Assembly (NCBI GenBank): GCA_902604305.1
Contig: CACKXS010000003.1
Coordinates: 36,714 to 100,713, forward strand
DNA length: 64,000 nt
Direction of reading: 5' to 3'
DNA from: an uncultured Pelagibacteraceae bacterium
GTDB taxonomy: Bacteria > Pseudomonadota > Alphaproteobacteria > Pelagibacterales > Pelagibacteraceae
Position 1 is the first letter of the stretch, and every line of letters starts with the position of its first letter. The notes beneath the pieces were generated by a model that did no database searches, was not told the DNA's origin, and was given only the letters and a program-made list of their open reading frames with translations. The translations under genes were made by a program, and so were the position numbers. Below are positions 17,624 through 34,122 of the stretch, piece by piece.

Positions 17624-17710
17624 TGGTGCCCTCGGCCAGACTCGAACTGGCACTCCCAAAAGGGCAAGGATTTTAAGTCCTTTGTGTCTACCAATTTCAC
17701 CACGAGGGCA
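17624..17710 (-). tRNA. trnL: tRNA-Leu (anticodon TAA), island attachment locus
   Basis: 87 bases, encoded CCA, class II variable arm; acceptor TGCCCTCG/CGAGGGCA, anticodon loop CTTAAAA (anticodon TAA, reads UUA/UUG). Bases 6-40 of this tRNA (17705-17671) recur exactly at 22172-22138, 4.4 kb away, marking it as the integration site of the island between the two copies. The intact copy faces the island with its 5' end, so the present promoter lies on the island side. Confidence 0.97.
17671..17705. repeat. Direct repeat, left copy (inside tRNA-Leu), attL-like
   Basis: 35 bases identical to 22138-22172, running from TTTTAAGTCC to TTCACCACGA on the plus strand. It covers the D-arm and the anticodon arm up to the anticodon loop of the tRNA. 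Tyrosine recombinases of tRNA-targeting elements commonly cross over in the anticodon region, so this is read as an attachment-site copy. Confidence 0.85.
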
Positions 17711-17727
17711 TTTGTCAATTTCATAAG

Positions 17728-17756
17728 TATTTATGCTAACATTTATAATTTAACAA
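17728..17756 (-). promoter_or_regulatory. Promoter candidate for tRNA-Leu
   Basis: Minus-strand TTGTTA (17756-17751), 17-base spacer, TAAATA (17733-17728), ending 17 bases before the tRNA 5' end. It lies outside the 35-bp repeat on the island side, so the promoter may have come with the island. Confidence 0.45.
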
Positions 17757-17784
17757 GATCATTAATCAAATTTTTTTTTAGTTT

Positions 17785-17814
17785 ATCTCCCTATGCTCTG
17801 GTCTTGCTCTTGTT
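17785..17814. repeat. Second island-end repeat, left copy
   Basis: ATCTCCCTATGCTCTGGTCT followed by TGCTCTTGTT. It matches 21984-22013 at 27 of 30 positions in the same orientation, and each copy is itself built of two GCTCTTG-like units four bases apart. Possible arm-type recombinase binding sites or recombination directionality sites; function is inferred. Confidence 0.65.
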
Positions 17815-17844
17815 ATCCTATAAAATCCCTCAAAATGAAACTAT

Positions 17845-18285
17845 CTAAATATTAATCTTATACTCAATTAATACTAGCGTTCTCCATCCATTCTTTTCTT
17901 TAAGAACTTTTTTATGAACTATTTTATATCCAGCAATACTTACATCCTCTAATTTAGAGTCAGCTGTTAAATCATAAGTCTTAGTTATGCCTTTACTATT
18001 TTCCTTATGAGTTATGATCTCATTAGATACAATCGAGTGTTGAGTAATATCTGCAATTTTTATTTTTGCTGATAAAATTGCTTTATTTTCAGAAATATTA
18101 AGATCCTTAGACCAGCCATTTCCACATACTTTAATTACTTTTTCAGTACTTTTATTTTTATCACAATAAACATTTACAAATTTTTGTAAATCATCAGGTG
18201 ATGTAATTGATTTTTTATTTTTAACATAAGAATTAGTGCAATTGCTTAATAATAATCCAATTATAATTATTGATAATATTTTCAT
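17845..18285 (-). CDS. Putative lipoprotein of the island (LPP20-like pattern)
   Basis: 146 residues. An N-terminal hydrophobic segment ends in LLLSNC, a lipobox with the cysteine at residue 16, so it should be lipidated. The mature part has GNGWSKDLNISENKAILSAK, resembling the 'G.g.s.......A...A' pattern of LPP20-type lipoproteins; this likeness is by eye only. Last gene of a minus-strand run of four small genes (18977 or 19025 down to 17845), the first three overlapping. Confidence 0.7.
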   Translation of the reverse strand: MKILSIIIIGLLLSNCTNSYVKNKKSITSPDDLQKFVNVYCDKNKSTEKVIKVCGNGWSKDLNISENKAILSAKIKIADITQHSIVSNEIITHKENSKGITKTYDLTADSKLEDVSIAGYKIVHKKVLKEKNGWRTLVLIEYKINI

Positions 18286-18293
18286 TTTTTCTC

Positions 18294-18512
18294 CTATAAG
18301 TTTTCAAGTAATGTAAAAAATACCATTGTAAAAGCTCGATGGTATTTTTCATCAGTGATAAATTGGACAAAAATGTTGTCCTTTTCTTCACAAGTATATG
18401 TTTCTTTTTTATTCACTAATTTATTATTTTCGACGTCCGCATATGCATAATACTTGCACTTAGCATTTGCAGGACTGATTAACAAAAAAAGAACTAATAA
18501 GATTCTAATCAT
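18294..18512 (-). CDS. Small exported protein, unknown
   Basis: 72 residues: a signal peptide (MIRILLVLFLLISPANA, cleavage expected after ANA) followed by a short mature part with two cysteines. No family recognised. Its start overlaps the end of the upstream gene by 8 bases and it is followed 8 bases later by the lipoprotein gene, so it belongs to an island operon of exported proteins. Confidence 0.6.
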   Translation of the reverse strand: MIRILLVLFLLISPANAKCKYYAYADVENNKLVNKKETYTCEEKDNIFVQFITDEKYHRAFTMVFFTLLENL

Positions 18513-18744
18513 AAATCTCCTTTTCTTTTTGGCTTATTTCAAATCTAACCTGATTTAAAATAGCATCCATTAGAACAAAAAATGCCTTATGTACTTCTTG
18601 TTCAAATACTTTTTTTTGGCATACTGAGTTACACTCTGTCAGAACATGTATTAACGTTTTTTGATAATACTCATTAGATTTTGCAAATGAATGAGTTGTG
18701 AAAGTTATCAAAAACAAAAAAAATAGAGTTTTTATAAGCTTCAT
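18505..18744 (-). CDS. Small exported protein, unknown
   Basis: 79 residues: signal peptide MKLIKTLFFLFLITFTTHSF ending near AFA-K, then a mostly helical mature part with a CNSVC pair that could form a disulphide. Not recognised. It overlaps the DUF4116-like gene upstream by 4 bases and the next small exported gene by 8 bases, indicating translational coupling. Confidence 0.6.
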   Translation of the reverse strand: MKLIKTLFFLFLITFTTHSFAKSNEYYQKTLIHVLTECNSVCQKKVFEQEVHKAFFVLMDAILNQVRFEISQKEKEIYD

Positions 18745-19025
18745 TTTTCTCCTTTCTTTTTATTAAGACCAACTAAGGTCATTATTTCTTTGTCATTTAT
18801 TAATTTGCTATCCAAGATTAGATATACGTGAATATTTTTTTTAAGAGCTACTTTTGCTACTTCTTTATTTTTTAAATATTTTTTATCCGCATGTCCTATC
18901 GCAAATGGTTCATTTTCAATAGCAGCTAAAACGATTTCTTTATTTTTTTTAAAATTGTTTGACAATGATTTGATCACCCAACCATTTTTTTTAACTAATT
19001 TTAAAGCTTCTGATTTAGTAATAAT
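18741..19025 (-). CDS. DUF4116-like helical repeat protein; start uncertain
   Basis: The sequence shows the alternating 'LKnkevvlaAvk.n' pattern of DUF4116 repeats: EALKLVKKNGWVIKSLSNNF, KNKEIVLAAIENEPFAIGHA, KNKEVAKVALKKNIHVYLIL. Function of the family is unknown. The shortest conventional start is a GTG at 18977, which would cut the first repeat in half. The frame stays open to an ATT at 19025 preceded at 6 bases by GGAGG (19036-19032), which would restore the full repeat (94 residues). Either a rare ATT start or damage to the 5' end is possible. It overlaps the end of the frameshifted gene upstream. Confidence 0.55.
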   Translation of the reverse strand: MITKSEALKLVKKNGWVIKSLSNNFKKNKEIVLAAIENEPFAIGHADKKYLKNKEVAKVALKKNIHVYLILDSKLINDKEIMTLVGLNKKKGEK

Positions 19026-19226
19026 CTTTATCCTCCATAAATGACTTCAGCAATTCTTTAATAATTTTAGAATTGTGTTCGTCTAGTTCTTTGTCTGATA
19101 GTTTTCTTAACTCATTCTCTGAGAGATTTTGTGGAGCTTGTTTCTTTTCTTTATCAGTAATAACGGCTTGTTTTATACACTTTTTAAGAAAAATTTTTCA
19201 GTGAAATAAGATTGATTATTTTTCAC
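19015..19226 (-). pseudogene. Small island gene with a single-base frameshift
   Basis: From a GTG at 19226 the frame reads VKNNQSYFTEKFFLKSV and stops. After restoring one base in the A5 run (minus strand of 19185-19181) it continues as LKKCIKQAVITDKEKKQ to a stop at 19015, giving a 70-residue charged, helical protein. 212 bases plus one equals exactly 71 codons. The downstream part has no ATG, GTG or other good start of its own. Either a real inactivating indel, a sequencing error in a homopolymer, or a recoding site. No family recognised. Confidence 0.45.
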
Positions 19227-19246
19227 TAAGTAAATAAACTCAAAAT

Positions 19247-19648
19247 ATGAAAAGTAAGATTTTACAAAAAAAAGAAGATAATAAAGCTTCAGATTTTGAA
19301 CGAGATATTTCACTTAAAGATGCAAAATCATTAAAAGTGGAACTATCTTCTTTTGTGTATAATGATTTCAATCCTGACTCAGATGAATATGAAGAGCAGG
19401 AAATATCAGTTAAAAAATCTGATGTAAAATTTAAGATTAAGGATAATAAAGGCAAATTAAAGATTGTCTTAGTGTCAGCAAATATTGATTTTGATATAGA
19501 TGATGATGGGCAAAGCGAAAGATTTATGGATAAAGACTGGGAAACTGAAACAATTTTTCCTACATTAAAATTGACTGACAAAAGTAAAAAAGAAGAGTAT
19601 GTGGCTTATGATGGCGGTCATCTTTTTACTTTAGAATTAGTTTATTAA
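19247..19648 (+). CDS. Unknown acidic island protein
   Basis: 133 residues, no signal peptide or membrane segment, rich in Asp/Glu/Lys, with a beta-strand-like middle (KLKIVLVSANIDFDIDDDGQ) that includes a DIDDDGQSE stretch resembling an acidic calcium-binding loop; that is only a resemblance. Not recognised. It is divergent from the frameshifted small gene (19226), with only about 20 bases between the two starts, and precedes the nuclease-like gene by 29 bases on the same strand. Confidence 0.6.
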   Translation: MKSKILQKKEDNKASDFERDISLKDAKSLKVELSSFVYNDFNPDSDEYEEQEISVKKSDVKFKIKDNKGKLKIVLVSANIDFDIDDDGQSERFMDKDWETETIFPTLKLTDKSKKEEYVAYDGGHLFTLELVY

Positions 19649-19677
19649 ATAGTAAATTAATTTTTCACACTTTTGTA

Positions 19678-20223
19678 ATGAATAGTTTTTTTATAAATCC
19701 TAAAGATGCTCAATTTTCAATAAAAAAATCTAAGGAAAGATTAAAAGAATATCTTTTCATTTTTAATCTATTAATTGATAAAGAAAAAAAATCCAAACTA
19801 TCAAAAGAAGAAAGCGCAAAACTAATTAGTCTTGTTGAGTCAGCTGCGATTGAGTGCACTATGCAATTTTTTTGGAAATGTGGATATTGGATTTTAAGGG
19901 AGCAACAAACTAAAGGTCCTATGGATTTATATGTTTATAAAATAGTTAACGGTGAAAAAATTGAATATGCTGTTGATGTTAAGGGTATACGTCCTAATGC
20001 CAAAAAGAAACCAGCCCATAAACCGACTTTACCTAAAGGGTACGAGAAAAAATCACATCATATTAGAGATCAAATTTTAAAAAGAATTGTTGCGATTGTT
20101 TATTTAAAAGATGAAAAAACAAGAAAAGAAATAAGCTTTACTGAAGGTTGGCACACCTCTTTTAAAGGCGGACAAGCTGGACTTACTGGAAAAAGAGTTG
20201 AAATAAATAAAAAAAAAATTTAA
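19678..20223 (+). CDS. Putative PD-(D/E)XK-fold nuclease-like protein
   Basis: 181 residues. The ordered residues E59 (in SLVESAAIEC), D83 (GPMDLYVY) and D100-V-K102 (EYAVDVKGIR) match the E...D...(D/E)xK layout of restriction-endonuclease/Holliday-resolvase-like enzymes, with the DVK strand preceded by a hydrophobic strand. A basic tail with GWHTSFKGGQAGLTGKR follows. Substrate unknown; it may act on DNA as a small restriction or repair enzyme, or be an inactive relative. Same strand as its neighbours on both sides. Assignment is by motif spacing alone. Confidence 0.5.
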   Translation: MNSFFINPKDAQFSIKKSKERLKEYLFIFNLLIDKEKKSKLSKEESAKLISLVESAAIECTMQFFWKCGYWILREQQTKGPMDLYVYKIVNGEKIEYAVDVKGIRPNAKKKPAHKPTLPKGYEKKSHHIRDQILKRIVAIVYLKDEKTRKEISFTEGWHTSFKGGQAGLTGKRVEINKKKI

Positions 20224-20275
20224 GAAAATTTAATAAAAATCTTTAATTCTAATATGGTTCGTTATAATATTAACT

Positions 20276-20671
20276 ATGCCAAATTTATATTTAAAAATTG
20301 ATATCGATACAGAACTGTTTACCGAAAGCGGTAAAAAGATGAAAGAAACTATTGAAAGAATTAATAATATAGTAATTCAATATAAAGGTTTTTCTGACGT
20401 AGAATTTAATTATGATATTTATGTTGATAAAGACGATTTTATAAAAGATTATGAGCTTACAATTAGTGAGAAATCACCTTATAAAATTAGGATTAAAGGA
20501 TTAGCAAAAGCTAAAGTTAAACCAGAATTAATTCAAGAGTTTAATATGGATAAAAAGAAAAATTTTGTTCTGTCCCAAGTTCATGTAAGTCCTTTTGAAA
20601 TATTACAAACAAAAAAAAGTAAAAAACCAAAAAAAATGGAATGTTTAGCTAGTATTAAGAAACCAAAGTAA
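20276..20671 (+). CDS. Unknown island protein
   Basis: 131 residues, cytoplasmic by appearance, with a lysine-rich C-terminal tail (QTKKSKKPKKMECLASIKKP) that could contact nucleic acid. The core (LYLKIDIDTELFTESGKKMK, and YDIYVDKDDFIKDYELTI) looks alpha/beta. Not recognised. Follows the nuclease-like gene by 52 bases and is convergent with the next gene (38-base gap, no terminator seen). Confidence 0.55.
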   Translation: MPNLYLKIDIDTELFTESGKKMKETIERINNIVIQYKGFSDVEFNYDIYVDKDDFIKDYELTISEKSPYKIRIKGLAKAKVKPELIQEFNMDKKKNFVLSQVHVSPFEILQTKKSKKPKKMECLASIKKPK

Positions 20672-20709
20672 TTGGTCTAATATTTCTTGTAAAATTTCAT
20701 CCAAAATTA

Positions 20710-21165
20710 TTATTTTATAGAAAGCTTAAGCTTAGCTATTTTTTCTTCAACCTCATTTATCGCCTTGTAAATTTGATCTTTTTCAGTTTTGCTAATTTCT
20801 TTTCCCATTGGACTATCAGGGCTCATTGCATCATGAGTTGTATCCATAAGATTGCCTACCCTACCACCTATTTTAATTAATGTGCTCGCAACATTTTCAT
20901 ATACATTTACTTTATTAAATTCATCCTCAAGTGTAAGAGAGAAATTATCAATAAACGGTGTACCTAGAGATTTTCTTTGCATTAAAATATCAAGTTTTAT
21001 TGCATCAATATAATGTAAATTATGATCTTTATCATCTGGGTCACTACATTTTCTAAAGTGAGAAATTGACTTATTGGTAATATTTTTTACTTCATCTTCT
21101 TCAAGTTTACTAATTACTTGCGAAAGAACATGCTCAACAGTTAAAGGTACACGAAGTTTTGTCAT
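20710..21165 (-). CDS. Possible DNA-binding partner protein of the island
   Basis: 151 residues. The first half (LTVEHVLSQVISKLEEDEVK, then ITNKSISHFRKCSDPDDKDHNL and the following IDAIKLDILMQ) resembles the layout of phage CII-like or Cro-like regulators, where a helix-turn-helix is followed by 'W.dPd....p...a..lD'. That is a weak visual likeness. The C-terminus is a predicted coiled coil (INEVEEKIAKLKLSI). It begins 3 bases after the RecB/Cas4-like nuclease gene, so the two are coexpressed. Regulator or nuclease accessory subunit are both possible. Confidence 0.45.
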   Translation of the reverse strand: MTKLRVPLTVEHVLSQVISKLEEDEVKNITNKSISHFRKCSDPDDKDHNLHYIDAIKLDILMQRKSLGTPFIDNFSLTLEDEFNKVNVYENVASTLIKIGGRVGNLMDTTHDAMSPDSPMGKEISKTEKDQIYKAINEVEEKIAKLKLSIK

Positions 21166-21168
21166 TTT

Positions 21169-21969
21169 CTATATAAATTCTTTTCCTGCATCTAAGTACA
21201 TACATTTTTCACAACTCTTATTAATTTCAGGAACATTGTCTAGTTCTAAAGTTTTTTTCATATCATTGATATTATCTTCTACCCAAGATGTATCTGTAAC
21301 GTACGGAACTAAAGTTATGGTAAAATTTAATTTTCCCTCAAAATTGTCAAAACTTTTTTCACCATTACATACATAAAAATACGAAGTATCTGAAACTTTA
21401 AAACCCATTTTTCTAAGAATATGGACATATATATCCATCTGTATTTTATAACCTTGGTGAAAAATACTTTCTAAATATGCTTTAGTTTCAACTTTGGTAT
21501 TACTTGATTGAGCCTTGTAATCTACTACAACTAATTCCTCTTTATCTAAATCATACCAAATATCATCTACTCCACCATGAATTTCTAAATTAGTGTCTTT
21601 ATCTAAATATGAAATTCCACCAGATAAAGAGTTTCTCCAATTATCTAATTCTTCATGCTGAAAAGGAATAAAATTAAGATTATGTTTCTTAAATATTGGG
21701 TGTGGTTTTTTTTGGCTTCTCAGTAAATCAAATTCTTTTTTAAGTAGCTCATCAACTGCAACATTTAATGACCAGCCAGGCATTCCTGGTTCTTTCAATC
21801 CCTTAACCCTATCAAGATAAAAACATCTTTTACAATCTAAAAAACTACTAAATTTTGATCGGCTAATTTTAAAAGGCTCATTGGTTCCTTTTTTATAAAC
21901 ACTTCCTTTTCGATTTCTTAAAGGATTTACTTCAACTAAATTACCTTTGCTATCTCTTTTTAAACCCAT
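21169..21969 (-). CDS. RecB/Cas4-like PD-(D/E)XK nuclease domain protein
   Basis: 266 residues with the ordered motifs of the RecB nuclease family: SRSKFSSFLDCKRCFYLDRV at the N-terminus (Ser/Cys motif, CKRC at 46-49), GGVDDIW (D135/D136), VVDYKAQ (D150-x-K152), QMDIYVHIL (Q177, Y181), and a C-terminal CEKC (253-256). Paired N- and C-terminal cysteines suggest an iron-sulphur clasp as in Cas4/AddB, though the spacing differs. No helicase part, and no CRISPR array or cas genes nearby. First gene of a two-gene unit with the 20710 gene. Likely acts on DNA ends; role unknown (defence, repair or element maintenance). Confidence 0.7.
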   Translation of the reverse strand: MGLKRDSKGNLVEVNPLRNRKGSVYKKGTNEPFKISRSKFSSFLDCKRCFYLDRVKGLKEPGMPGWSLNVAVDELLKKEFDLLRSQKKPHPIFKKHNLNFIPFQHEELDNWRNSLSGGISYLDKDTNLEIHGGVDDIWYDLDKEELVVVDYKAQSSNTKVETKAYLESIFHQGYKIQMDIYVHILRKMGFKVSDTSYFYVCNGEKSFDNFEGKLNFTITLVPYVTDTSWVEDNINDMKKTLELDNVPEINKSCEKCMYLDAGKEFI

Positions 21970-21983
21970 AAGTTTATCTTACT

Positions 21984-22013
21984 ATCTCTCCATGCTCTTG
22001 TCTTGCTCTTGTT
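21984..22013. repeat. Second island-end repeat, right copy
   Basis: ATCTCTCCATGCTCTTGTCT followed by TGCTCTTGTT; 27 of 30 positions match 17785-17814, same orientation. Contains GCTCTTG-TCTT-GCTCTTG, a short tandem. It lies about 125 bases inside the right 35-bp repeat, while its partner lies 80 bases inside the left one, as expected of sites placed by an integrating element. Confidence 0.65.
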
Positions 22014-22129
22014 TAAGAATTTAATTAAGTATTATTTTCAAATGTTATTATACAGCTAAATTAAAGGTATGTGATTTTATAGTATATTTAGACTACCTTG
22101 GATTACTATGGACTGACTTTAACTTCTAT

Positions 22130-22172
22130 CCCTCGGCTTTTAAGTCCTTTGTGTCTACCAATTTCACCACGA
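22130..22172 (-). repeat. tRNA-Leu fragment, right island boundary (attR-like)
   Basis: 22138-22172 is an exact 35-bp copy of the tRNA-Leu interior. Directly beside it, 22130-22137 reads CCCTCGGC, identical to the tRNA's acceptor 3' strand region at 17630-17637, so the piece resembles a tRNA-Leu whose variable and T arms were deleted. The 5' acceptor strand is missing (the sequence diverges at 22173). It ends 25 bases before the gcvP stop codon. It cannot form a functional tRNA. Confidence 0.8.
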
Positions 22173-22197
22173 TTCCTAAAAGTTTTTTCTTTTATTT

Positions 22198-25056
22198 TTA
22201 AGCTGCAGTATTTTTATATTCATCCATTGATGGACAAGAACAAAATAAATTTTTATCTCCGTATACATTATCCACTCTAGCTACTGGCGGCCAATATTTA
22301 AATGTTTTTAAGAATTCTGATGGATATGCAGCTTCTTCTCTTTCGTATTTATGATTCCATTTATTTGAGGCTAATTCAACATGAGTATGTGGAGCATTTT
22401 TAATTGGATTATCAATTTTATCAAATTCACCTGATTGAATTTTATCAATTTCTTCTTTAATTTTTTTCAGTGTTAAGCAAAATCTATTTATTTCTGATAA
22501 ATTTTCACTTTCTGTAGGTTCAATCATCATAGTTCCTGCTACTGGCCATGACATTGTTGGTGCATGAAAACCAAAGTCAATTAATCTTTTTGCAATATCT
22601 TCCTCGGTTATTCCTGTTTCTTTTTTTAATTTTCTAATATCAATAATACACTCATGAGCAACATTTCCACTTTTACCCTTATATAAAATTGGAAAATAAT
22701 CTTTTAACTTATGAGCAATATAATTCGCATTTAAAATTGCAACTTGAGAAGCTTTTTTTAATCCTTCTGATCCCATCATTTTAATATACATCCACGAAAT
22801 TGATAAAATACTTGCACTTCCCCAAGGTGCAGCAGAAACAGCTCCGATCCCAGTGGCAGGTCCACAATCTTTAATAACAGAATGTTTAGGTAAAAAACCT
22901 TCTAAATGTTTTTTGCATGCTATCGGCCCCATACCTGGTCCACCTCCTCCGTGTGGTATACAAAATGTTTTATGTAAATTAATATGGCAAACGTCTGGAC
23001 CAAATTTGCCAGGTTTTGCAATTCCTACTAATGCATTTAAATTTGCACCATCCATATAAACTTGACCTCCATGCTTATGAACAAGTTCACATATATCAGT
23101 TATCTTTTCTTCAAAAACACCGTGCGTTGAAGGATAAGTGACCATTAATGCGGCAAGATTATTTGAGTGTTCTTCAGCTTTATTTTTTAAATCTTCAAAG
23201 TCTACATTTCCATGTTGATCACATTTAACAACAACAACTTTCATGCCTACCATTTGTGCACTTGCAGGGTTTGTACCATGAGCTGAACTTGGTATTAAAC
23301 AAACATTTCGATTGTCTTCACGATTTTTTTCATGAAATTTACGAATAACCATTAAACCAGCAAACTCTCCTTGGGCTCCAGCATTTGGTTGTAATGATAC
23401 ACCTGAAAAACCTGTAATTGATCTAAGCCAATTTTTTAAATCTGTAAATAATTCTCTATAACCATCCATTTGTTCTACTGGAGAAAAAGGATGAGGTTGT
23501 GAAAATTCTTTCCATGTAATTGGTATCATTTCAGACACTGCATTTAATTTCATTGTACACGAACCCAATGCAATCATTGATTTATTTAAAGCTATATCTG
23601 AGTCTTCTAATCTTTTTAAATATCTAAGCATCTCTGTTTCTGAATGATAATTATTAAAGACAGGATGATCTAGATAGGTTGAGTTTCTTAATAAATTTTT
23701 AGGTAAATTAGATAAACTCTCGTTCATTGTTTCCTTTATCGTTTCAGAACAGTTAAAAATTTTTAATAATTGATTTGCTCTATAAAGATTTTTCCTCTCA
23801 TCAAAAGAAACTGCTAACATCTCAGAATTAACTTTTCTAATATTAACTCCTTGATCTAATGCATTTTTATAAATTTTATCTGTCTTATCTAAAGTTTTAA
23901 CTGTTACAGTATCAAAAAAATGATTTGAATAAAGTTCGTAACCTGATTGTTTTAACTTGTCTGCAAAATTTTTTGTTAATTGCGAAACGCTTTCTGATAT
24001 TTTTCTAATTCCTTTTGGACCATGATAAATTGCATAGGCTGCAGAAACTATTGCTAACAAAGCTTGAGCGGTACAAATATTACTAGTAGCTTTATCTCTT
24101 CTAATATGTTGTTCCCTTGTTTGAAGAGCAAGTCTGTAAGCTTTTTTTCCATGTCGATCTACTGAAACACCAACTATTCTTCCTGGCATTGATCTTTTGT
24201 ACTCATCTTTAGTAGCAAAAAATGCTGCATGTGGACCACCATATCCCATCGGTATGCCAAATCTTTGAGAGCTACCAACTGCAATATCTGCACCTAATTC
24301 TGCTGGCGTTTTTAATTTTGCTAAAGCTAGTAAGTCACAAACTAGTACAGCTTTACCATTATGTTTATGAATTTTACTTATAGCTTCACTTGGATCTTTA
24401 ATATCACCTAATGTTCCTGGATATTGAATAATACCACAAATAACTTCTTCTTTAATATCTTTATCTTCATCACCAACTATTATTTCTAATCCTAAAGGTT
24501 CTGCTCTTGTTTTAATAACTTCGATAGTTTGTGGATGACAATTTTTTGAAACAAAAATTTTTTTTGTTTTTGATTTAGTAATTCTATAACTTAAACCTAC
24601 TGCCTCAGCTGCAGCAGTACCTTCATCCAATAAAGATGCATTAGCAATATCCATTCCTGTAAAATCAATTACCATTTGTTGAAAGTTTAATAACATCTCA
24701 AGTCTTCCTTGAGCTACCTCTGGTTGATATGGTGTATAAGAAGTGTACCATCCTGGATTTTCTAAAATATTTCTTAATATTACATAAGGAGTATAAGTTC
24801 CATAGTACCCCATACCAATAAAACTAGAATATACTTTATTTTTTTTTGAAATGTTTTTTAGTTTTCTTAGTGCTTTATATTCAGAATTAGGATCACCAAT
24901 ACCTAAATCGTCTTTAAAAAGAATTTTTTCTGGTACAGTGTTTTTAATTAATTCATCTAGATTTTTAAATCCTAATTCTTGAAGCATTATATTTTGCTCT
25001 TCTTCTGAAGGACCAATATGCCTTTGAATAAAATCCTTTTGAGCGTTTTTTAACAT
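22198..25056 (-). CDS. gcvP: Glycine dehydrogenase (decarboxylating), P protein
   Basis: The PLP-dependent P protein of the glycine cleavage system, which decarboxylates glycine and passes aminomethyl to the lipoyl arm of GcvH. 952 residues, the single-chain form with both halves fused. The PLP lysine lies in NLHKTFCIPHGGGGPGMGP near residue 696; the N-terminal half begins with DFIQRHIGPSEEEQNIML. Its ATG follows directly on the gcvH stop. It ends 25 bases from the island boundary. Operon with gcvT and gcvH under the glycine riboswitch. Confidence 0.98.
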   Translation of the reverse strand: MLKNAQKDFIQRHIGPSEEEQNIMLQELGFKNLDELIKNTVPEKILFKDDLGIGDPNSEYKALRKLKNISKKNKVYSSFIGMGYYGTYTPYVILRNILENPGWYTSYTPYQPEVAQGRLEMLLNFQQMVIDFTGMDIANASLLDEGTAAAEAVGLSYRITKSKTKKIFVSKNCHPQTIEVIKTRAEPLGLEIIVGDEDKDIKEEVICGIIQYPGTLGDIKDPSEAISKIHKHNGKAVLVCDLLALAKLKTPAELGADIAVGSSQRFGIPMGYGGPHAAFFATKDEYKRSMPGRIVGVSVDRHGKKAYRLALQTREQHIRRDKATSNICTAQALLAIVSAAYAIYHGPKGIRKISESVSQLTKNFADKLKQSGYELYSNHFFDTVTVKTLDKTDKIYKNALDQGVNIRKVNSEMLAVSFDERKNLYRANQLLKIFNCSETIKETMNESLSNLPKNLLRNSTYLDHPVFNNYHSETEMLRYLKRLEDSDIALNKSMIALGSCTMKLNAVSEMIPITWKEFSQPHPFSPVEQMDGYRELFTDLKNWLRSITGFSGVSLQPNAGAQGEFAGLMVIRKFHEKNREDNRNVCLIPSSAHGTNPASAQMVGMKVVVVKCDQHGNVDFEDLKNKAEEHSNNLAALMVTYPSTHGVFEEKITDICELVHKHGGQVYMDGANLNALVGIAKPGKFGPDVCHINLHKTFCIPHGGGGPGMGPIACKKHLEGFLPKHSVIKDCGPATGIGAVSAAPWGSASILSISWMYIKMMGSEGLKKASQVAILNANYIAHKLKDYFPILYKGKSGNVAHECIIDIRKLKKETGITEEDIAKRLIDFGFHAPTMSWPVAGTMMIEPTESENLSEINRFCLTLKKIKEEIDKIQSGEFDKIDNPIKNAPHTHVELASNKWNHKYEREEAAYPSEFLKTFKYWPPVARVDNVYGDKNLFCSCPSMDEYKNTAA

Positions 25057-25437
25057 TTAACTGCTACTTTCTTTTGAAAATTTTTCATATTCTTCTCTAT
25101 TCATCAATGAATCCAATTCGGAGTTATCTTTGATCTTCAATTTAAAAAACCAAGCTGAACCTTCGGGATCTTCATTAATTTTTGAAGGATCATCCACAAT
25201 TGCTTGATTGGTATCCATAACTTCCCCACTTACCGGAGTATATACATCGCTTGCTGCCTTAGTTGACTCTACTACTCCTGCTGTTCCATCTTTTTCAACA
25301 TTAGATCCTTTTTCAGGAAGTTCTGCAAAAACTATATCTCCAAGCATTTCTGTTGCATGCTTTGTAATGCCTATGGTGGCTACATCTCCCTCTAAACTAA
25401 TCCACTCATGCTCCTTTGAAAATTTTACTTCACTCAT
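25057..25437 (-). CDS. gcvH: Glycine cleavage system H protein
   Basis: Lipoyl carrier of the glycine cleavage complex, 126 residues. The lipoylated lysine is K60 in [11 protein letters not shown]; the N-terminus [20 protein letters not shown] and the C-terminal SAWFFKLKI are standard H-protein sequence. It overlaps the gcvT stop by one base and is followed without gap by gcvP. Confidence 0.98.
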
Positions 25438-26540
25438 TAATTTGCTCCTTTCACATAATTTTTTTTATAAAATGGTAACTCACAAATATTTGCTGGATAT
25501 TTTTTTCCTCTTACTTCAAGCAAAATCTTAGTATCTATTTTTGAAAATTCTTTATCAACATATCCCATAGCTATAGGTCCATTTATACTTGGACCAAAAG
25601 TTCCACTTGTGATTTCTCCAATTTGCTTGTCAGTTTCTTCAAAAATTTTTGTTTTTTCTCTCGCAATTAATCTACCTTCTGGTTTAATACCAACTCTTAT
25701 TTGGCTTGTTCCACTTTGAATTTGGTTAATAATTTTCTCAGATCCAACAAACCCTCCATTTGATAATCTTTCTTTTGATATTGCCCATTTAAGGTTTGCT
25801 TCAACTGGTGTTTTATTAATATCTAATTCATGACCATATAAACACAGTCCAGCTTCTAATCTCAAAGTATCTCTTGCTCCAAGTCCTATAAGTTGTGCTC
25901 CTTTATCAATTAATTTTTGAGTAAATTCTTCAGCAAAATTATTTAATATAGATATTTCGAATCCATCTTCGCCGGTATATCCAGATCTTGTCACAAATAA
26001 TCTTTGATTTTTAAAATCAATCCATTTGCCTGTCATAAAATTCAATTTCTCAACTCCATTTAAAACTGAGTTTAAAATTTCAACAGATCTAGGTCCTTGC
26101 AGTGCCACTAAAGCTCTTTCGTTTTCTAAAGTCATTTTAAAATTACCACCTAATAATTTCGATAAAATTTGAAAATCATTTTCTTTGCATGCTGCGTTTA
26201 ATATGATGAGATAACCTTCTTCAATTTTTGTGATTATCAAATCATCATATATTCCAGCCTCTTCATTCATTAAAAAACTATATTTTGAACTGTTTTGTTT
26301 TAAATTCTTTAAATCTAGTGGAAAAATTTTTTCAAGTTCTATAGTTAAATTTTCTCCTCCATAAATAAATAACTGACCCATATGAGAAACATCAAAAATT
26401 CCAGAATGTTTTCTTGTAAATTTATGTTCTTCAATAATACCTTTGCTATATTGTATGGGCATCTCATAACCAGCAAACTCGACAAACTTAGCTTGATTTC
26501 TTTGGTGAAGATTATTTAAAGATGTTTTTTTTGTTTCCAT
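25437..26540 (-). CDS. gcvT: Aminomethyltransferase, T protein
   Basis: Tetrahydrofolate-dependent T protein that releases ammonia and makes methylene-THF; about 367 residues. Conserved: [27 protein letters not shown] near the N-terminus, and [11 protein letters not shown]. The frame also permits ATG at 26552 and TTG at 26555. The ATG at 26540 was chosen because a GAGAG lies 5 bases upstream and because this codon sits in a 12-base stretch complementary to the riboswitch linker, as expected for the regulated start. The upstream ATG would add four residues and would use the AGAGG at the foot of aptamer 2. Confidence 0.95.
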
Positions 26541-26559
26541 ATTAACTCTCATCAACCCC

Positions 26560-26696
26560 CTCTGTCTTTTTGCCTGAGAGATTTGCTCCTTCGGCGAGAA
26601 TAATTCTCTTTCCAGAGTTAATATGTACGGTCCTTTTGCCTGAGAGTTTCCGGGGTGGTTGCTCCTTCGGCGCCAATAAAATTGGTCTCTCCCGTA
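26560..26696 (-). promoter_or_regulatory. Tandem glycine riboswitch of the gcvTHP operon
   Basis: Two glycine aptamers in tandem on the minus strand. Aptamer 1 spans 26696-26626 (closing stem TACGG/CCGTA) and aptamer 2 spans 26617-26560 (CTCTG/CAGAG). Both contain the conserved core elements GCCGAAGGAGCAA and CTCTCAGGCAAAA. Between aptamer 2 and gcvT there is no terminator; instead the linker 26625-26614 is perfectly complementary over 12 bases to 26549-26538, which contains GAGAG and the gcvT ATG. This pairing and the aptamer 2 closing stem share bases 26617-26614, so they exclude each other. Glycine binding should therefore open the start site (ON switch acting on translation). The mechanism is inference from complementarity. 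Confidence 0.95.
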
Positions 26697-26843
26697 TTAA
26701 TTTTAGTCTGTTCTAATTGTTGTAAATTGTCAAGGACTAAAAAACTAAAAAATATATTGAAAATTTTAGATTAAATAAATCAACAAACCTAGAAACTCGA
26801 TCCCTAAAAGATTTTTCATAATTATAAACTAACTGAATAATCT
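26697..26843 (-). promoter_or_regulatory. gcv promoter region
   Basis: A perfect minus-strand -35 TTGACA lies at 26733-26728, about 32 bases before aptamer 1. No good -10 was found at 16-18 bases (CAGACT at 17); TAAAAT lies at 22 bases. The remaining stretch, 26734-26843, down to the stop of the giant gene, is plain A/T-rich sequence in which nothing else, including no terminator, is seen. Confidence 0.5.
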
Positions 26844-29800
26844 TTATTCGTTTGCACAAGACCCTTTGCAAGCTCTACGTTGTCCACCTATAATTCTCCA
26901 TTCAACATTATCACCAGGCTTAACTTCTGACCTTGACCAATAATAACCTTTTTCATCTTTAAATAAACTATCTTTCCTATCTTTTCTTGCAGATGTATTT
27001 CTGTATTCATCAACTACTTGTTTAGCAATTGAACTAATATCTCCACCTGTATCTTTTTGTATTTGAGATATTAATGATTGAACATTATCAAGTGCATAGT
27101 CAATCCCGGCATCATCCACAGCAGATTTAGCTGCTGAAGCTACTTCAGCAGAAGAAGCTGCTGCTGCTTCTGCTGCTGCTTGCGCAGCTTCTTTTGCAAT
27201 TTGTGCAGTTTGTTTTGCTGCCTCTTCAGCTGCTTCTGCAGCTGCTGCTGCTGCTTCATTGGCCACTGCTCTTGCTGCATCGGCGGCTTGTTTTGCTGCT
27301 TCTGCAGCTGCAATATTGGCCTCTGTTGCATTTTCTGTTGCTGCTGCTGCAGCAGCTATTGAAGCGCTTTCTAAGTTATTAGCTAAATCACCTGCAACAC
27401 CTGATGCGGTATCTAAAGATTTTTCAGTTGCGTTTGCTAACGCTAATGTATTAGAAGTAATAATTCCTTTTTCTAAGTCAGCAGATGCTAAATATTCTGC
27501 TTTATTTGCATCAGCAGCTTGATTTGCTGCTTTTGCAGTTCTTTCTAATAAATGTTTTTGTGTATTTCCAGATTCGTCCTCTATTTGTGCAATTTGTGTT
27601 TCAAATTTTTTTATATCTTCACTATGAGCTTTCGTTGTTGCTTTAGAGAATGATGTTTTTGCTTGAGTTGATATAGATGCATCTGAAATTATTGCACCAT
27701 CAACAACTCTAATTACAGGGTTCTTTTTTCCTTGCCCTTTAAAAGTCGCTTGACCATTTACATGGCCCGTATACCCTGTGGTTAAACCTTCAGGTATATT
27801 TAATGCTGTAGTCATATAAGCAGTTGCTTGCTCACTAGTAATATCAAACTTACAACCACCGCTGTTACAACGTCCAGCAACATTTCCTGTTAAAGGATCA
27901 GCTAAATTTTCTAATACATACATTCCTCCAAAACTGGCTGCTTTTTTACCAAAACTGCCAGTGGGTCCACAAGTTGATCCATCGCAAACTAGACTGCCTG
28001 AATGTCCAGTTACTGGATTTGCCATTTGTTCGCCAGTTTTAGCATCCACCAAAACCCAAGCCCCCAATGATCCAGATCCATATTGTGAATCATATGTTTG
28101 TTGGCCTCCAACCATTTTTCCTGTTTCTTGTAATTGTCTAGCTGCTTCCTCCGAAAAGTTAATTTTTAAATCACCTTCTTCATCAATTGTTTTAAATGAA
28201 TAAAGTAGCTCTGGTTCAACTGCGCCTGCTGTATAAACAGACCCATTAACAGTCACAGTTCCTTTTGGTGCTTCAAATTTTCCAGATTGGTCAGTTAATA
28301 AATTAGTATCGATTAGTCTATAAGTATTAATATCTCCGTTAATTGAAATAATTGATTTATTTTCAATTAATCCAATTTTTTCAACTAATTTAGCTTCTAA
28401 ATCTTTTTCAATAATTTCTAATTTTTTTGCTTCGGAATAAGCTAAATCAGCCTTTAAGTTTGTAAAATCCTTTAAATCTTGGTTTAATTTTACTATTTGT
28501 TGTTCTATTTTTGGAGAATTTAACTCAATATTTTTTATCTCATTATTTAATTCTGAAACTGATGCTGTTAAATCTTTAGCTTGATTTTGAAATTTATTTA
28601 TTTCTTCATTAATTTCTAAGTTTTTTTGATCAAATTCTGTCTTTAAAGTTTTTATATCTAATGTTTGATTATTTTCAGACTGAACTTGCTTTTCAATTTC
28701 TTCTAATTCCTTATTAAAGTTTATTGTTAACTCATTTTGTTGTGTTTCTAAGTTTTTAATAGAGTTATTAATAGGATTTAACTGATTTTCTAAATTTGAT
28801 ATAGATAATTTTTTCTGAACTACTGTACTTTGATTTAAGTTAAGTTGGCTAGTTAGTTCGTTTAACTGAGAATTTATACCCTCTTCATTTATTTTAAGAT
28901 TAGCTATTTCTTTTTCTAGTTTTATTACCTCCTTATCAATGTTTTCAATCTTAGTTTTATTTTCATTAGTTAGTGCAGAGATTTGTGCCTCTAGGCCAAC
29001 ATATTGATCTAACTCCTTATTCAATATAGATAATTTAGCTGATAAATCAGGTGTTTTAGTTTCTAAATTTTTAATTTCATTATTTAAATTAGAAATATTT
29101 GTTTTCAAAGTTTCAGAATTTGTTTTTAAAATATTTATTTTGTTATCAACTTCACTCAATTCTTCATTTAATTTATCTTTTATTTTATTAGCTTCGGATG
29201 TTATTTTTTCAGTACTAGTAGCATTATCTGCTATTATTGATAATTGTTTTTCTACTTCTATATTTAAGGTTTGTCTTTTTTGCTCTAGTTGAATTATTTC
29301 ATTTGCATATGGGTCTAATTCGGTTTGTAAACTTTGTATTGATGTTTTCTTTTCATTAATAATGTTTTGCTTTGAAAATAAATCAGAATTTAATTTTGAA
29401 ATTTCAGATTTTACTTTTTCTTCATTTAATTTTATAGAATTTAATTCTGCTTCAAGTTTTGATATATTTGTATTTAGACTATTTAATTGAGCTTTATTAT
29501 TATTTATTTGTGATTTTAAAGTATCTGTTTGTTTATTTAAAGCATTCAACTTAGGATTATTATTACCTAAGATTGATGAAAGTTCTTTTTCTATAGCTTT
29601 CCTTTCTGATGTAGATAACTGTATTCTATCTTCTTCAGCAACATATACATAATCCATGTTCCCTTCCATTTTTGATTTAACAATCATAGCTAACTTTACA
29701 TTTGTCATTTCCCAATATGGCCCTGTCATATATTGGGATGTTGGAGTTGCTCCAATTTGTTTGATTTTTTCTACAGCTGTTTTATATGCTTCATAAGTAT

Positions 29801-32789
29801 TAGGGTCCTGGTCGAGTGCTGCTCTTAAGGCAGCAGACTGATCACCAACATCTATTGGTCTACCACCAAGCCAAATATCCCTGTTTCCTATTCCTGTCAT
29901 TGCTTCATAAGCTCTATCTAATTGCTTTTGACTAAATGAAGGTATTTTAGTTATAATTTCTCCTACTTTATCAACGTAATTATAATCTGGGTTTTTGGAA
30001 ATTTCATCACTGGTTATTTTTTGTATATTTGATTTCGCTTCATTTACCATTGTAATAACATTAGCTCTTGCTTGTTTTGATGCATTCGCTTCTTTCATGA
30101 TCTTCTGTGAAGATAGGCTTATAACTTCTTGTTGTGTATTTATCCAATTATTGGTTTCTAAAGGAGGCGTGGCGTTATCAATTTGTATTTTATATATTTC
30201 ATTATTAATATTTAGTGCATCAGTCATTTTATTTTGAGCTTTAGATCTTATGTCGCCAAGCTCTTGATCGAATTTGCCAATGCTTCTCACCCAATCACTA
30301 TAATTAGGATTTCCTCTATCTCTATATAAAGCTGCGTAACCACCAATTGAATTTATATATGACATTTTTTCTAATGACTTCTGAGTATATGTTTGATTGA
30401 AATTATTCACCTGAGCATATAATCCGGTTAACTCATCTTGTAACGGTTTGATTGCTTTATTAATCTCTTGATTTTTTAATTCTTGAAAAGCTTTAATATC
30501 CGTTAACTGTTTTTGTTTTTCTTCAAGAGTTGATGTTAAAGATTTTAAATCTAAATCATTATTAACTATATTTTCAAATTCTTTATTTACCATTTCCGCT
30601 TCTAAAGAGCCTTCTTGAAGCGCAGCGTATTGAAGAGTTGTTATATTTAGTTTGGATAATTCCTGATAAGGTTTAGTTTTTTCTTCTATTATAGCATCTA
30701 CCTGTCGCTTAATTTTATCTCCATTTCGGAAAACTTCTACGGCTTGTTGTAGCGCTTTTTCTTCTGCCACCATTACGTTTAATTCTGCCTCTGAAGGAAT
30801 ATCTACTACCCAATTTGGATTTTTACTTAATTTTTCTGTAATATTTTTGTAAACTTTTTTTGTCGTTTCCCAATCATCATTATTTATTGCATTAATACCT
30901 TCTTGAATTTCAGCTTGTGATAATCCAGCAAATGTTCCGTACTTTCTTATTTCAAATGCATTAGCTTTTCTTGTGTCTCCATCTAATAAAATGCCAACTT
31001 CTTCCATTGCAAAGTCAATTTCTTTTTCTGACATTTTATCAAGTAATGGATAAAAATATTCAACAGCCTCAACTTCTTTATCAATCGATTTTGCAAATTG
31101 ACTTTCGATAAAATCTCTTTCAAGCGAAACTCTTTGTAATTGCTCCTCTAATGATTGGTTTGTTTTTGATAAATTAGTTGGAAGATTCTTCAGTCTATAT
31201 AACTCAAGTTCTTTTGATTCTAAAACTTCTTTAGATTTAGATAATTTATTATTTAGAGAAATTAAATTGCTTGATAATTCGTTTACAATATTTGTTTCAT
31301 TAGATATTTCAGTATTTAATTGAGATAGGTTTTGTTGAATTACTCCCTTTTTATTTTCTATATCTTTAATTTGATTGGTTACAGAGTTAATTTCGTTGTT
31401 TAAATTATTAGCTAAATCTTTAGATTGTATTATTTCATTACTATTTACACTATTATTTAAATTTTCTAATTCACTGTTATACTTCGATAATAGTTCAGCT
31501 TTTTTGGTGTTTAGTAAACCAATCTCATCATCTAAAGGACTTATTTCACTATTTAAATCGGCTATTTGAGACCTTTTTTGTGATAATAAAGAATTTTGAC
31601 TACTCAGTTCACTTTCTAAATCTGTTAACTGTTTTTGCAAATTTTTAGACTGCACAACTTTTTGTTCAAGCTCCAGTATACTTGTATTATTTGCATTACT
31701 GGATGTTTGATTTTTTAATTTATCTATTTCAGTTTTCTTTGTGGCTATCAAATTTTTCAGCTCAAATTTATCTCTATTAAGTTTATTTATTTTTGCTGTA
31801 ATAGAATTTGATAAGGATAAATCTGAATTTATACTTAAATTCATTTGAGAAATCTCTGATCTTAAATTAGAAGATTTTTGATTAACAGTTTCAATTTCTT
31901 TTGATATTCCTTGAAGATCTTTTTCAAATTTTTCCGTAAGTTTATTTACTTTGACATCATTAGTATTTAATCCTGCAACTCTTAATTTTGATAGTTGAGC
32001 ATTATATTCATTTGTCAATTTAGATTTTTCATCTTCCAATCTATTTATTTCTAAGGAAATTGGTTCTAGTTGATTATTTAAAGAAACAAGAGAGGCTTGT
32101 TTGCCTTGTATATTCAAATTATTTTTTTTTAGATTTTGTTCTAATTCTGTTAATTTATTTTCTATTTCTTTATCAACTATAACTTCATTGCCTGAGCTCG
32201 TAATCATTGTTCCTTTATATGAGTCAGCCAATTCTTTTTTTGATAAGTTTTTTTTTTGTTTTAATTTATTAATATCTATATTTAATTCTAACGTATCGAC
32301 TCCTATAGAATTTAAATTATCAATGATTTCAAAAGTTTTTAATCCTTTTTGGTCTAAAGAAACTAAATCATCGATTACTTTTTTTAACTTATTTTTTTTA
32401 TTTTGGTTCATTGATTTTGTTATTTTTGTAACTTCTTTAAGATCATCAGCATTTAATTTTGACATATCGAGATTGGACATGTCTGAAGTTGCTTCTTTAG
32501 GAATCAAGTTTGAAATTTCACCTAGAGTTCGATCAATAAATTCTAGACCTTTTATTGCATCATCAGAACTATTTTTAAGTGTGTCAGTTACAAAAAGTGT
32601 TGCTTTGTTTATTTCTTTGATAGCATCATCGATTATTTTAGCTTCGTTGCTTACTGGATCTTTTAATTCATTAAATTTTTCTTGAACTTCTTGTAACGAC
32701 TTTGTTAACATCTCAATTTCATCGTCAGCAAAAACTATATTGGGTAAAATTATTAATGATATAGCTAAAATTTTTATAAATTTTCTCAT
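26844..32789 (-). CDS. Giant exported coiled-coil protein
   Basis: 1981 residues, by far the longest gene here. Order: signal peptide (1-21, ending NIVFA); coiled-coil block A (about 190-540) and block B (about 1085-1440), each containing two copies of a roughly 175-residue unit marked by 'L..eL.Pi...I..Le' (near 239, 411, 1155, 1335); a more globular middle (about 540-1080); a glycine/beta-rich part with cysteine pairs VCDGSTC and RCNSGGC near 1600-1640; an alanine-rich helix (about 1795-1900, low complexity); and a C-terminal segment with YWSRSEVKPGDNVEWRIIGG and CKGSC. The rods resemble SMC-type coiled coil, but export rules out an SMC role. Likely a periplasmic or surface fibre; function unknown. 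Second gene of a two-gene unit. Confidence 0.85.
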   Translation of the reverse strand: MRKFIKILAISLIILPNIVFADDEIEMLTKSLQEVQEKFNELKDPVSNEAKIIDDAIKEINKATLFVTDTLKNSSDDAIKGLEFIDRTLGEISNLIPKEATSDMSNLDMSKLNADDLKEVTKITKSMNQNKKNKLKKVIDDLVSLDQKGLKTFEIIDNLNSIGVDTLELNIDINKLKQKKNLSKKELADSYKGTMITSSGNEVIVDKEIENKLTELEQNLKKNNLNIQGKQASLVSLNNQLEPISLEINRLEDEKSKLTNEYNAQLSKLRVAGLNTNDVKVNKLTEKFEKDLQGISKEIETVNQKSSNLRSEISQMNLSINSDLSLSNSITAKINKLNRDKFELKNLIATKKTEIDKLKNQTSSNANNTSILELEQKVVQSKNLQKQLTDLESELSSQNSLLSQKRSQIADLNSEISPLDDEIGLLNTKKAELLSKYNSELENLNNSVNSNEIIQSKDLANNLNNEINSVTNQIKDIENKKGVIQQNLSQLNTEISNETNIVNELSSNLISLNNKLSKSKEVLESKELELYRLKNLPTNLSKTNQSLEEQLQRVSLERDFIESQFAKSIDKEVEAVEYFYPLLDKMSEKEIDFAMEEVGILLDGDTRKANAFEIRKYGTFAGLSQAEIQEGINAINNDDWETTKKVYKNITEKLSKNPNWVVDIPSEAELNVMVAEEKALQQAVEVFRNGDKIKRQVDAIIEEKTKPYQELSKLNITTLQYAALQEGSLEAEMVNKEFENIVNNDLDLKSLTSTLEEKQKQLTDIKAFQELKNQEINKAIKPLQDELTGLYAQVNNFNQTYTQKSLEKMSYINSIGGYAALYRDRGNPNYSDWVRSIGKFDQELGDIRSKAQNKMTDALNINNEIYKIQIDNATPPLETNNWINTQQEVISLSSQKIMKEANASKQARANVITMVNEAKSNIQKITSDEISKNPDYNYVDKVGEIITKIPSFSQKQLDRAYEAMTGIGNRDIWLGGRPIDVGDQSAALRAALDQDPNTYEAYKTAVEKIKQIGATPTSQYMTGPYWEMTNVKLAMIVKSKMEGNMDYVYVAEEDRIQLSTSERKAIEKELSSILGNNNPKLNALNKQTDTLKSQINNNKAQLNSLNTNISKLEAELNSIKLNEEKVKSEISKLNSDLFSKQNIINEKKTSIQSLQTELDPYANEIIQLEQKRQTLNIEVEKQLSIIADNATSTEKITSEANKIKDKLNEELSEVDNKINILKTNSETLKTNISNLNNEIKNLETKTPDLSAKLSILNKELDQYVGLEAQISALTNENKTKIENIDKEVIKLEKEIANLKINEEGINSQLNELTSQLNLNQSTVVQKKLSISNLENQLNPINNSIKNLETQQNELTINFNKELEEIEKQVQSENNQTLDIKTLKTEFDQKNLEINEEINKFQNQAKDLTASVSELNNEIKNIELNSPKIEQQIVKLNQDLKDFTNLKADLAYSEAKKLEIIEKDLEAKLVEKIGLIENKSIISINGDINTYRLIDTNLLTDQSGKFEAPKGTVTVNGSVYTAGAVEPELLYSFKTIDEEGDLKINFSEEAARQLQETGKMVGGQQTYDSQYGSGSLGAWVLVDAKTGEQMANPVTGHSGSLVCDGSTCGPTGSFGKKAASFGGMYVLENLADPLTGNVAGRCNSGGCKFDITSEQATAYMTTALNIPEGLTTGYTGHVNGQATFKGQGKKNPVIRVVDGAIISDASISTQAKTSFSKATTKAHSEDIKKFETQIAQIEDESGNTQKHLLERTAKAANQAADANKAEYLASADLEKGIITSNTLALANATEKSLDTASGVAGDLANNLESASIAAAAAATENATEANIAAAEAAKQAADAARAVANEAAAAAAEAAEEAAKQTAQIAKEAAQAAAEAAAASSAEVASAAKSAVDDAGIDYALDNVQSLISQIQKDTGGDISSIAKQVVDEYRNTSARKDRKDSLFKDEKGYYWSRSEVKPGDNVEWRIIGGQRRACKGSCANE

Positions 32790-32790
32790 T

Positions 32791-33624
32791 TTATTTTTTA
32801 TCTTCTTCTAATTTTTGTTTTAAGTTTGAAATGTTATTTTTATATTCAGTTAAAAGTCTTCTACGTTTTTTTAGTTCTGGACTTAATTTTTTAAGATTTT
32901 TTCCTTCACCTAAATCTAAAAAACTCCCAAGAACCCAATAGCCTTTTAAGGCATCTTTTGTTGTCAAACTTAAATCCATGCCTAATGCTTTTCTCATTTT
33001 TTCTCTTCCCTTGTTTAAGCCTATTAATGATCTTAAAGCATTTTCATCCATTTTTTTTTTTATATATTTTTGGTTTATATTATTTTTATATCTTTCTATG
33101 ATCTTTTGTTTTTTTCTAAAATTATTCCAATAAAATAATTCATAATAACCCATTGCTTTAATTAATTGACCTGGATTTTTCTCAGCCCATTTAGATGACC
33201 GTTTAAAAATTAACGACATTTTTTTTGTTGCTTTATCAGAAATACATACATTTGACTTACAACCTTTGGATAAAACTGAGTACATTTCTTCAGGATAATC
33301 ACTAACCTTTAGTTCTGTGTAAACCCCAAATTTTTCTAAGTCCTTTATTGTTATTGGCTCTTCATTATTAATTTTTTTATTTTTTTTTGTATTTGCAATG
33401 GACAATACTTTTTTTTCTTTATTGATTTCTTTATCTACTTTTTTTTCATTCAAAGAGAATTTTTTAATTGCTGCGTTGTATTCGGCTTCGGTTATGCCAC
33501 CTTTTTCGTATATATCTTTAATTTTATCTAAATTTGTATTATTTGTTTCAGCATTTGCTTCTGTAATTATTGTAATCGCGAATACAAAAAAAACTATAAC
33601 TGCTTTTATTTTTGGCAAAAACAT
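32791..33624 (-). CDS. Exported protein with N-terminal SHOCT-like motif, partner of the giant protein
   Basis: 277 residues with a signal peptide (cleavage near TEANA). Right after it, LDKIKDIYEKGGITEAEYNA follows the SHOCT pattern (short oligomerisation-like motif 'L.kl..L.e.G.IteeEy...K'). The rest is basic and helical, with a C-x4-C pair (GCKSNVC). No enzyme signature seen. It ends 1 base before the giant coiled-coil gene, so the two are almost certainly cotranscribed and may form an envelope complex (inference). Confidence 0.7.
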   Translation of the reverse strand: MFLPKIKAVIVFFVFAITIITEANAETNNTNLDKIKDIYEKGGITEAEYNAAIKKFSLNEKKVDKEINKEKKVLSIANTKKNKKINNEEPITIKDLEKFGVYTELKVSDYPEEMYSVLSKGCKSNVCISDKATKKMSLIFKRSSKWAEKNPGQLIKAMGYYELFYWNNFRKKQKIIERYKNNINQKYIKKKMDENALRSLIGLNKGREKMRKALGMDLSLTTKDALKGYWVLGSFLDLGEGKNLKKLSPELKKRRRLLTEYKNNISNLKQKLEEDKK

Positions 33625-33717
33625 TTTTTACTTTTAACATATCATATTTATTTAAAAATTTTTAAGTTAATAATGATAGAATTACTTGATCTTTGTAGTA
33701 TTTGCTTATCAATCTTG

Positions 33718-34122
33718 CTAGAAAGATTTTAATGCTTTTAATAAATACTTTTTTTCCAGTTTACAATCTCTATATCCTTGTTTAACAACATTTAAATATT
33801 TTTCAGTTGGATATCTAAATTTATTTTTTTTTACCATTGTATAAGTCATTATTTTTTTTCTATAATAATAAAAATAATGTTTCTTATATAAAACTGGATA
33901 ATCTTCATAAACATCTAGTTTTTTTTCATCGCTTTTAGAAATATTAAATAAAGCACCTGGAACTTCTGAGTTTTTTTTTGGTTCAATATCGGCTGCTCTA
34001 TATTTGCTTCTAAATGTTAAACAAAAATTTTTTAACTTCATCTTCTTCAAAAATTTGCTGTCTTTACATCTTCTTTTCATTTGAAAATGGTTAAGGTTGC
34101 TTCCATAAGCAAAATAAAGCAT
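33718..34122 (-). CDS. Gamma-glutamylcyclotransferase-like (AIG2/GGCT fold) protein
   Basis: 134 residues. The fold's nucleotide-like loop YGSNL is at residues 6-10 and the catalytic glutamate is E73 in LDVYEDYP, both intact. GGCT-family enzymes release 5-oxoproline from gamma-glutamyl compounds. Starts 1 base after the CinA-like gene. The substrate cannot be told from sequence. Confidence 0.8.
   Translation of the reverse strand: MLYFAYGSNLNHFQMKRRCKDSKFLKKMKLKNFCLTFRSKYRAADIEPKKNSEVPGALFNISKSDEKKLDVYEDYPVLYKKHYFYYYRKKIMTYTMVKKNKFRYPTEKYLNVVKQGYRDCKLEKKYLLKALKSF

Follow-up and report, generated by a model that had tools for sequence, protein, structure and literature searches.

A two-gene cassette in SAR11 bacteria with a predicted exported rod-core-rod protein, matched rods and a hypervariable core

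Two adjacent genes on the minus strand

The window is a stretch of 64,000 nucleotides from the 860-kb draft genome, 72% complete, of an uncultured Pelagibacteraceae bacterium. A preliminary description, made from the letters alone, had placed a protein of 1981 residues at 26844-32789 and had assigned the DNA to SAR11. Coordinates and length are correct, and checking the open reading frame and its translation supplies the strand that was missing, the minus strand; the plus strand has many stops across the same interval. The SAR11 assignment is right at the family level, the named relatives all being records of uncultured Pelagibacteraceae. That description was incomplete in three ways: it overlooked a partner gene, the sporadic occurrence of the system, and the hypervariability of the core. 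We call the partner gene A and the long gene B; their parts are the following.

32791..33624, minus strand: gene A, 277 residues, 1 nucleotide upstream of gene B
26844..32789, minus strand: gene B, whole reading frame, 1981 residues, beginning 1 nucleotide past the end of gene A
32727..32789, minus strand: signal peptide of gene B, residues 1-21, without lipobox, a feature common to all homologs
32211..32726, minus strand: N-domain, residues 22-193, constant in all B proteins and fused to A in some relatives
31647..32171, minus strand: rod 1 unit a, residues 207-381, from self-comparison and unit tree
31122..31646, minus strand: rod 1 unit b, residues 382-556, from self-comparison and unit tree
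29562..31121, minus strand: core, residues 557-1076, between the rods, all-helical in the model
30072..30671, minus strand: hypervariable core middle, residues 707-906, the proposed tip, from allele comparison and multiple alignment
28968..29504, minus strand: rod 2 unit a, residues 1096-1274, from self-comparison and unit tree
28452..28967, minus strand: rod 2 unit b, residues 1275-1446, from self-comparison and unit tree
27600..28451, minus strand: tail domain, residues 1447-1730, with two C-x4-C pairs, common to several homologs
27120..27383, minus strand: alanine-rich stretch, residues 1803-1890, present as first described
26856..26870, minus strand: C-x3-C at the C-terminus, residues 1974-1978, a motif that recurs at the end of B proteins

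A glycine riboswitch (RF00504, 69.6 bits; window 26618-26704, minus strand) separates the end of gene B from the genes gcvT-gcvH-gcvP. A scan for promoters stayed at chance level.

Protein A consists of a signal peptide, a SHOCT-like hairpin below threshold, a low-complexity linker and a helical domain, with one C-x4-C pair. In family alignments the helical domain carries the motifs 'KNPGQLIKAMGYYELFY' and 'MRKALGM'; the AF2 model of A is helical, with pLDDT above 85 over most of residues 90-240, and the best match of the fold in the PDB has an E-value of only 1.1. Against PF09851 (SHOCT) the protein scores 14.2 bits for a cut-off of 27, while 3 of 17 members of the A family match at E up to 0.01, the best at 0.0016.

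We define the A-B cassette as a domain A with the motif 'P-G-x-M-I-x-A-M', followed directly by, or fused to, the N-domain of B, an arrangement found at all 15 named loci, in the window and in the fused forms. The partnership is conserved as an operon: gene A directly precedes gene B at 15/15 named Pelagibacteraceae loci, where the two reading frames overlap or nearly touch. No third gene is conserved beside A and B at the named loci, and no secretion partner was found in the cassette there. In at least nine relatives A is fused to the N-domain of B, without rods, and these fusions lead us to propose that A binds the N-domain. The fused proteins are about 575-716 residues long and share a C-terminal domain of their own (L032:2344-4362, L081, L086, L089, L090, L092-L095). 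Shorter B proteins keep the N-domain and add other repeats or Lys/Ala-rich helices; in two of them (L098:4685-6331 and L099:4870-6699) the variable part is made of tandem repeats, 'NLGYSKQEIAAEL..' and 'AGFSDAEIRDAVYAAGEID..'. One genome, AG-894-L17 (L102, L107), holds three A-B cassettes that differ in type.

A signal-peptide-like start is present in every A and B protein whose N-terminus is intact, so that the conservation on which the original claim of export depended is found in every homolog examined. All six cysteines of gene B sit in the tail, as C-x4-C, C-x4-C and C-x3-C, which bears out the cysteine pairs first reported; among A and B homologs, cysteines are almost wholly restricted to such close pairs, located in A and in the B tail. 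Signal peptides together with paired cysteines support an oxidising, extracytoplasmic location, as had been supposed for B. Neither protein has another strongly hydrophobic helix, and LPXTG/sortase motifs and lipoboxes are absent from the B homologs. Many otherwise different B proteins carry, at their very C-terminus or close to it, a C-x3-C or C-x4-C, possibly an attachment or sorting signal.

The cassette is rare. Conservation across SAR11 had been proposed as a check: rod-core-rod B proteins were found in 6/399 genomes of the genus and 7/397 of the family, the host genome included. The remark that 6 kb is a costly outlay in so small a genome is thus true as to size, but it concerns a rare accessory cassette rather than a conserved envelope component. 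The rod-core-rod copies lie mostly near the genes for NAD kinase, an rRNA methyltransferase and tuf, where relatives differ in the genes present. Between a gamma-glutamylcyclotransferase-like gene and NAD kinase/rRNA methyltransferase/tuf (window 17700-34100, and L032-L051), the contents differ in most relatives examined; judged by gene content, the stretch 17700-34100 is a hypervariable island site. A viral origin was considered and rejected, scans of viral contigs and tblastn against phages having returned no relative.

Rods of equal length and a variable core

The bounds of the rods were set by conserved landmarks: rod 1 runs from the motif that ends the N-domain to the start of the core, and rod 2 fills the interval between the core and the motif 'KADLA'. 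Ten homologs have single-unit rods, of 187-190 residues for rod 1 and 189-191 for rod 2; in these same proteins core lengths range over 387-582 residues and tail lengths over about 310-530. In the window the rods measure 364 and 369 residues, and both are doubled. The best ungapped self-diagonal has an offset of 175 in rod 1 (z 4.8) and of 179 in rod 2 (z 4.2). Both z values are measured against every other diagonal within the same coiled-coil stretch, and both diagonals stand well above that background, which disposes of the objection that coiled coils resemble themselves in general. The units are thus significantly similar, and the four 'L..xL.P' units of the preliminary description are real, with their prolines at 243, 418, 1160 and 1339 (given there as 239, 411, 1155 and 1335).

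The origin of the doubling can be read from a tree of the units, computed on 142 columns. Units of rod 1 and units of rod 2, whose mutual similarity is distant (about 22-30%), form separate clades with support 100/99, and both units of each window rod group with their own rod; some terminal branches are long, and the fine branching within each clade is unsure. Consequently, each rod was doubled in place out of units of its own type, with about equal gains in length, a complete matched doubling seen in one protein, that of the window. Rod 1 of AG-464-G19, on a contig that ends in the core, is also doubled, with 366 residues, and its units pair one to one with those of the window (W1a-L101_1a, 95/91; W1b-L101_1b, 92/77): the doubling of rod 1 thus predates the split of the two proteins.

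A folded hairpin calls for arms of matched length, and here two rods remain equal at 30-40% identity and were doubled by 175 and 179 residues; this chief argument for an SMC-like geometry is a strong indication but not a proof. The doubling of both rods in place favours an antiparallel pairing, in which the chain would fold into a hairpin tipped by the core. In the AF2 model, helix breaks near residues 448 and 1191 lie at similar heights, a weak agreement. Proline kinks were rejected as support for pairing, their heights differing between the rods: they lie about 16 and 137 residues from the core in rod 1, and 85 and 170 in rod 2.

Three groups of close alleles exhibit one pattern, with differences concentrated in the core. 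Between L104 and L109, identity is 97% in the N-domain, 83% in rod 1, 42% in the core, 83% in rod 2 and 90% in the tail; between L131 and L132 it is 93% in the N-domain, 51% in the core and 91% in the tail, with 79-93% outside the core. The pairs L102/L113 and L102/L106 are about 95% identical except in the core middle, where identity goes down to about 13%, in L102/L113, and in parts of the tail. Across the multiple alignment, conservation within the core is limited to its outer parts and is lost in the middle 200 residues; at the DNA level, this middle is saturated or nearly so.

The base of the cassette has a dS of 0.08-0.51, against 0.85-1.9 in the flanking genes, where one estimate was not computable. 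This difference indicates that the cassette moved between species after the flanking genes had diverged. Both dN and dN/dS are low in the base, and low dN points to purifying selection, hence to a working gene. By these comparisons, the core has been replaced or diversified inside the cassette. The core middle of the window protein is closest to that of G335 (55%), yet their N-domains are 40% identical and their rods 34-39%, which suggests that exchange has taken place in the lineage of the window as well. At L113:15341-16375, a reading frame in a different frame overlaps the 3' end of gene B and runs past it; it may be what is left of an alternative tail segment.

Models and known systems

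An AF2 model of residues 381-1262 of gene B, built from 8 sequences, is all-helical, with a moderate mean pLDDT of 72.8 and a pTM of 0.40. The middle part first described as globular, with 540 residues, does exist, with 520; it is however predicted to be all-helical, with several long helices. Sequence searches of Pfam, NCBIfam, PHROGs and the PDB returned generic coiled-coil matches only, and no relative of gene B was found in Pfam or the PDB. The top PDB matches of the model in Foldseek are MukB (E 7.9e-5), followed by condensin and Smc5/6, with PrgA (PDB 6z9l) further down the list at E 0.06; TM scores of only 0.1-0.17 indicate a similarity of shape at most.

The likeness to SMC geometry noticed at the outset is supported, on stronger evidence than was first given, by the matched arms, which are length-locked in ten homologs and doubled together in the window; it does not extend to membership of the SMC family. 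As in SMC, MukB and Rad50, two equal arms flank a central domain and, in geometry, the N- and C-terminal parts would meet at the opposite end; Foldseek prefers SMC arms for the equal, length-locked arms of B, which may pair. Those proteins are cytoplasmic, with Walker A and the ABC signature in the N- and C-terminal halves of an ATPase head and a mixed alpha/beta hinge or a zinc hook at the apex of the arms, whereas B is exported and resembles them only at the low TM scores above. The Walker A motif (G-x4-GK[ST]) occurs in 0/12 homologs; LSGG or SGGQ strings are found in a few of the 12, outside any head context; and no SMC head domain rises above the Pfam cut-off. At the apex there is no sign of a hinge or zinc hook: no Pfam hinge domain, no cysteine in the core, and a core predicted to be all-helical. 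An SMC protein was therefore rejected, for want of Walker A and of a Pfam head or hinge domain, for its export, and for an NCBIfam similarity that is of the generic coiled-coil kind.

The closest architectural analogue is PrgA (PDB 6z9l), a plasmid-encoded surface-exclusion protein of enterococci, likewise exported. PrgA has a long intramolecular coiled-coil stalk that presents a domain inserted between both coils. It differs from B by its CAP domain, its LPXTG anchor and its Gram-positive host, and B comes with a partner, A; B has neither a Pfam match to CAP nor an LPXTG motif, and the analogy is one of architecture rather than of demonstrated homology. In Antigen I/II and other polymer-adhesin surface proteins of Gram-positive bacteria, the stretches on either side of the adhesin domain pair with each other, and the middle domain forms the tip (PMC7726212). 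Antigen I/II adhesins are marked by a beta-rich polymer-adhesin domain, A and P repeats and an LPXTG. The arms of B, in contrast, are alpha-helical and length-locked, its core is all-helical in the model, its sequence is unrelated, and it shows no polymer-adhesin Pfam match, no LPXTG and no sortase anchor.

Replacement islands of SAR11 genomes, such as the O-chain and giant protein clusters, are fixed sites at which lineages swap exposed structures by homologous recombination (PMC4033161, PMC2217521); phage predation has been connected with the variable exposed structures of the O-chain islands (PMC2217521, PMC4033161). Here, the unit is a single two-gene cassette, and the exchange takes place inside one protein, in its core. 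Alike in plan to these known systems but distinct in sequence, helical core, partner and host, the A-B system is best regarded as a variant of display hairpins and belongs to none of them.

A proposed display hairpin and its rivals

We consider it somewhat probable that A and B form a two-protein exported display system of SAR11, an envelope-anchored hairpin stalk with an exchangeable recognition tip. B would be secreted by Sec and fold back on itself, rods 1 and 2 pairing antiparallel into one stalk; counting 0.149 nm per residue, the stalk would be about 28 nm long in single-unit homologs and about 54 nm in the window. The N-domain and the C-terminal tail of B would come together at the base, which protein A would bind, anchoring the stalk in the envelope. 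B may be exposed on the cell surface, across the outer membrane, and the core at the far end would be an exchangeable recognition module, swapped by recombination while base and rod length are retained; the tip might make contact with a phage, a particle, a cell or a polymer.

In a less likely reading the hairpin stays in the cell, as a periplasmic ruler or tether spanning partners in the inner membrane, the wall and the outer membrane, with a core that varies with its partner. Sec signal peptides without a known outer-membrane export route and the cysteine pairs agree with such a role, as does an inferred single-unit rod of about 28 nm, near the width of the periplasm. The alanine-rich helix is reminiscent of TolA, which has one of a similar kind. 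However, a doubled rod of about 54 nm would be too long to fit across a periplasm of usual width, the rarity of the cassette and its movement between species speak for another role, and it is exposed structures that more typically have a middle module swapped; we hold this role to be unlikely, if worth keeping in mind.

Equal and doubled rods could also have arisen with no pairing at all, through slippage of repeat units or through gene conversion in coiled-coil DNA of low complexity. The units of the two rods are distantly similar, about 22-30%, so that a common unit length could be inherited, and only one doubling event is fully visible. Such an origin accounts poorly for rods that keep their length to within 2-3 residues at 30-40% identity, against differences of hundreds of residues in core and tail, and for the doubling of both rods, each from its own unit type; it seems to us improbable. 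Being exported, modular, horizontally moving and long-stalked, B finally recalls a secreted contact-dependent weapon or a polymorphic-toxin-like protein, whose variable part would be the effector. Yet its variability lies in the middle rather than at the C-terminus, no toxin domain matches in Pfam, NCBIfam or PHROGs, and no immunity-like gene consistently follows B, all of which makes a weapon very improbable.

The display hairpin allows a wider conjecture, which we offer tentatively, as plausible rather than probable: that SAR11 bacteria have a mobile two-gene system built on a fixed-length exported hairpin, SMC-shaped and ATPase-less, outside the cytoplasm, whose reach can change by doubling of whole units in both arms and whose tips are exchanged between species, the likely effect being to alter or evade recognition by phages or other partners. 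The idea of matched arms is testable, since rods of one chain that remain equal over 30-40% identity and are doubled together are as expected if pairing is required. SAR11 genomes are streamlined, yet some spend about 6.8 kb on a cassette that encodes one exported rod together with its partner. If the model of a hairpin with its tip is true, these very abundant marine bacteria would possess a protein-based variable surface structure besides the O-chain islands, and the cassette would be a candidate device for phage contact or attachment.
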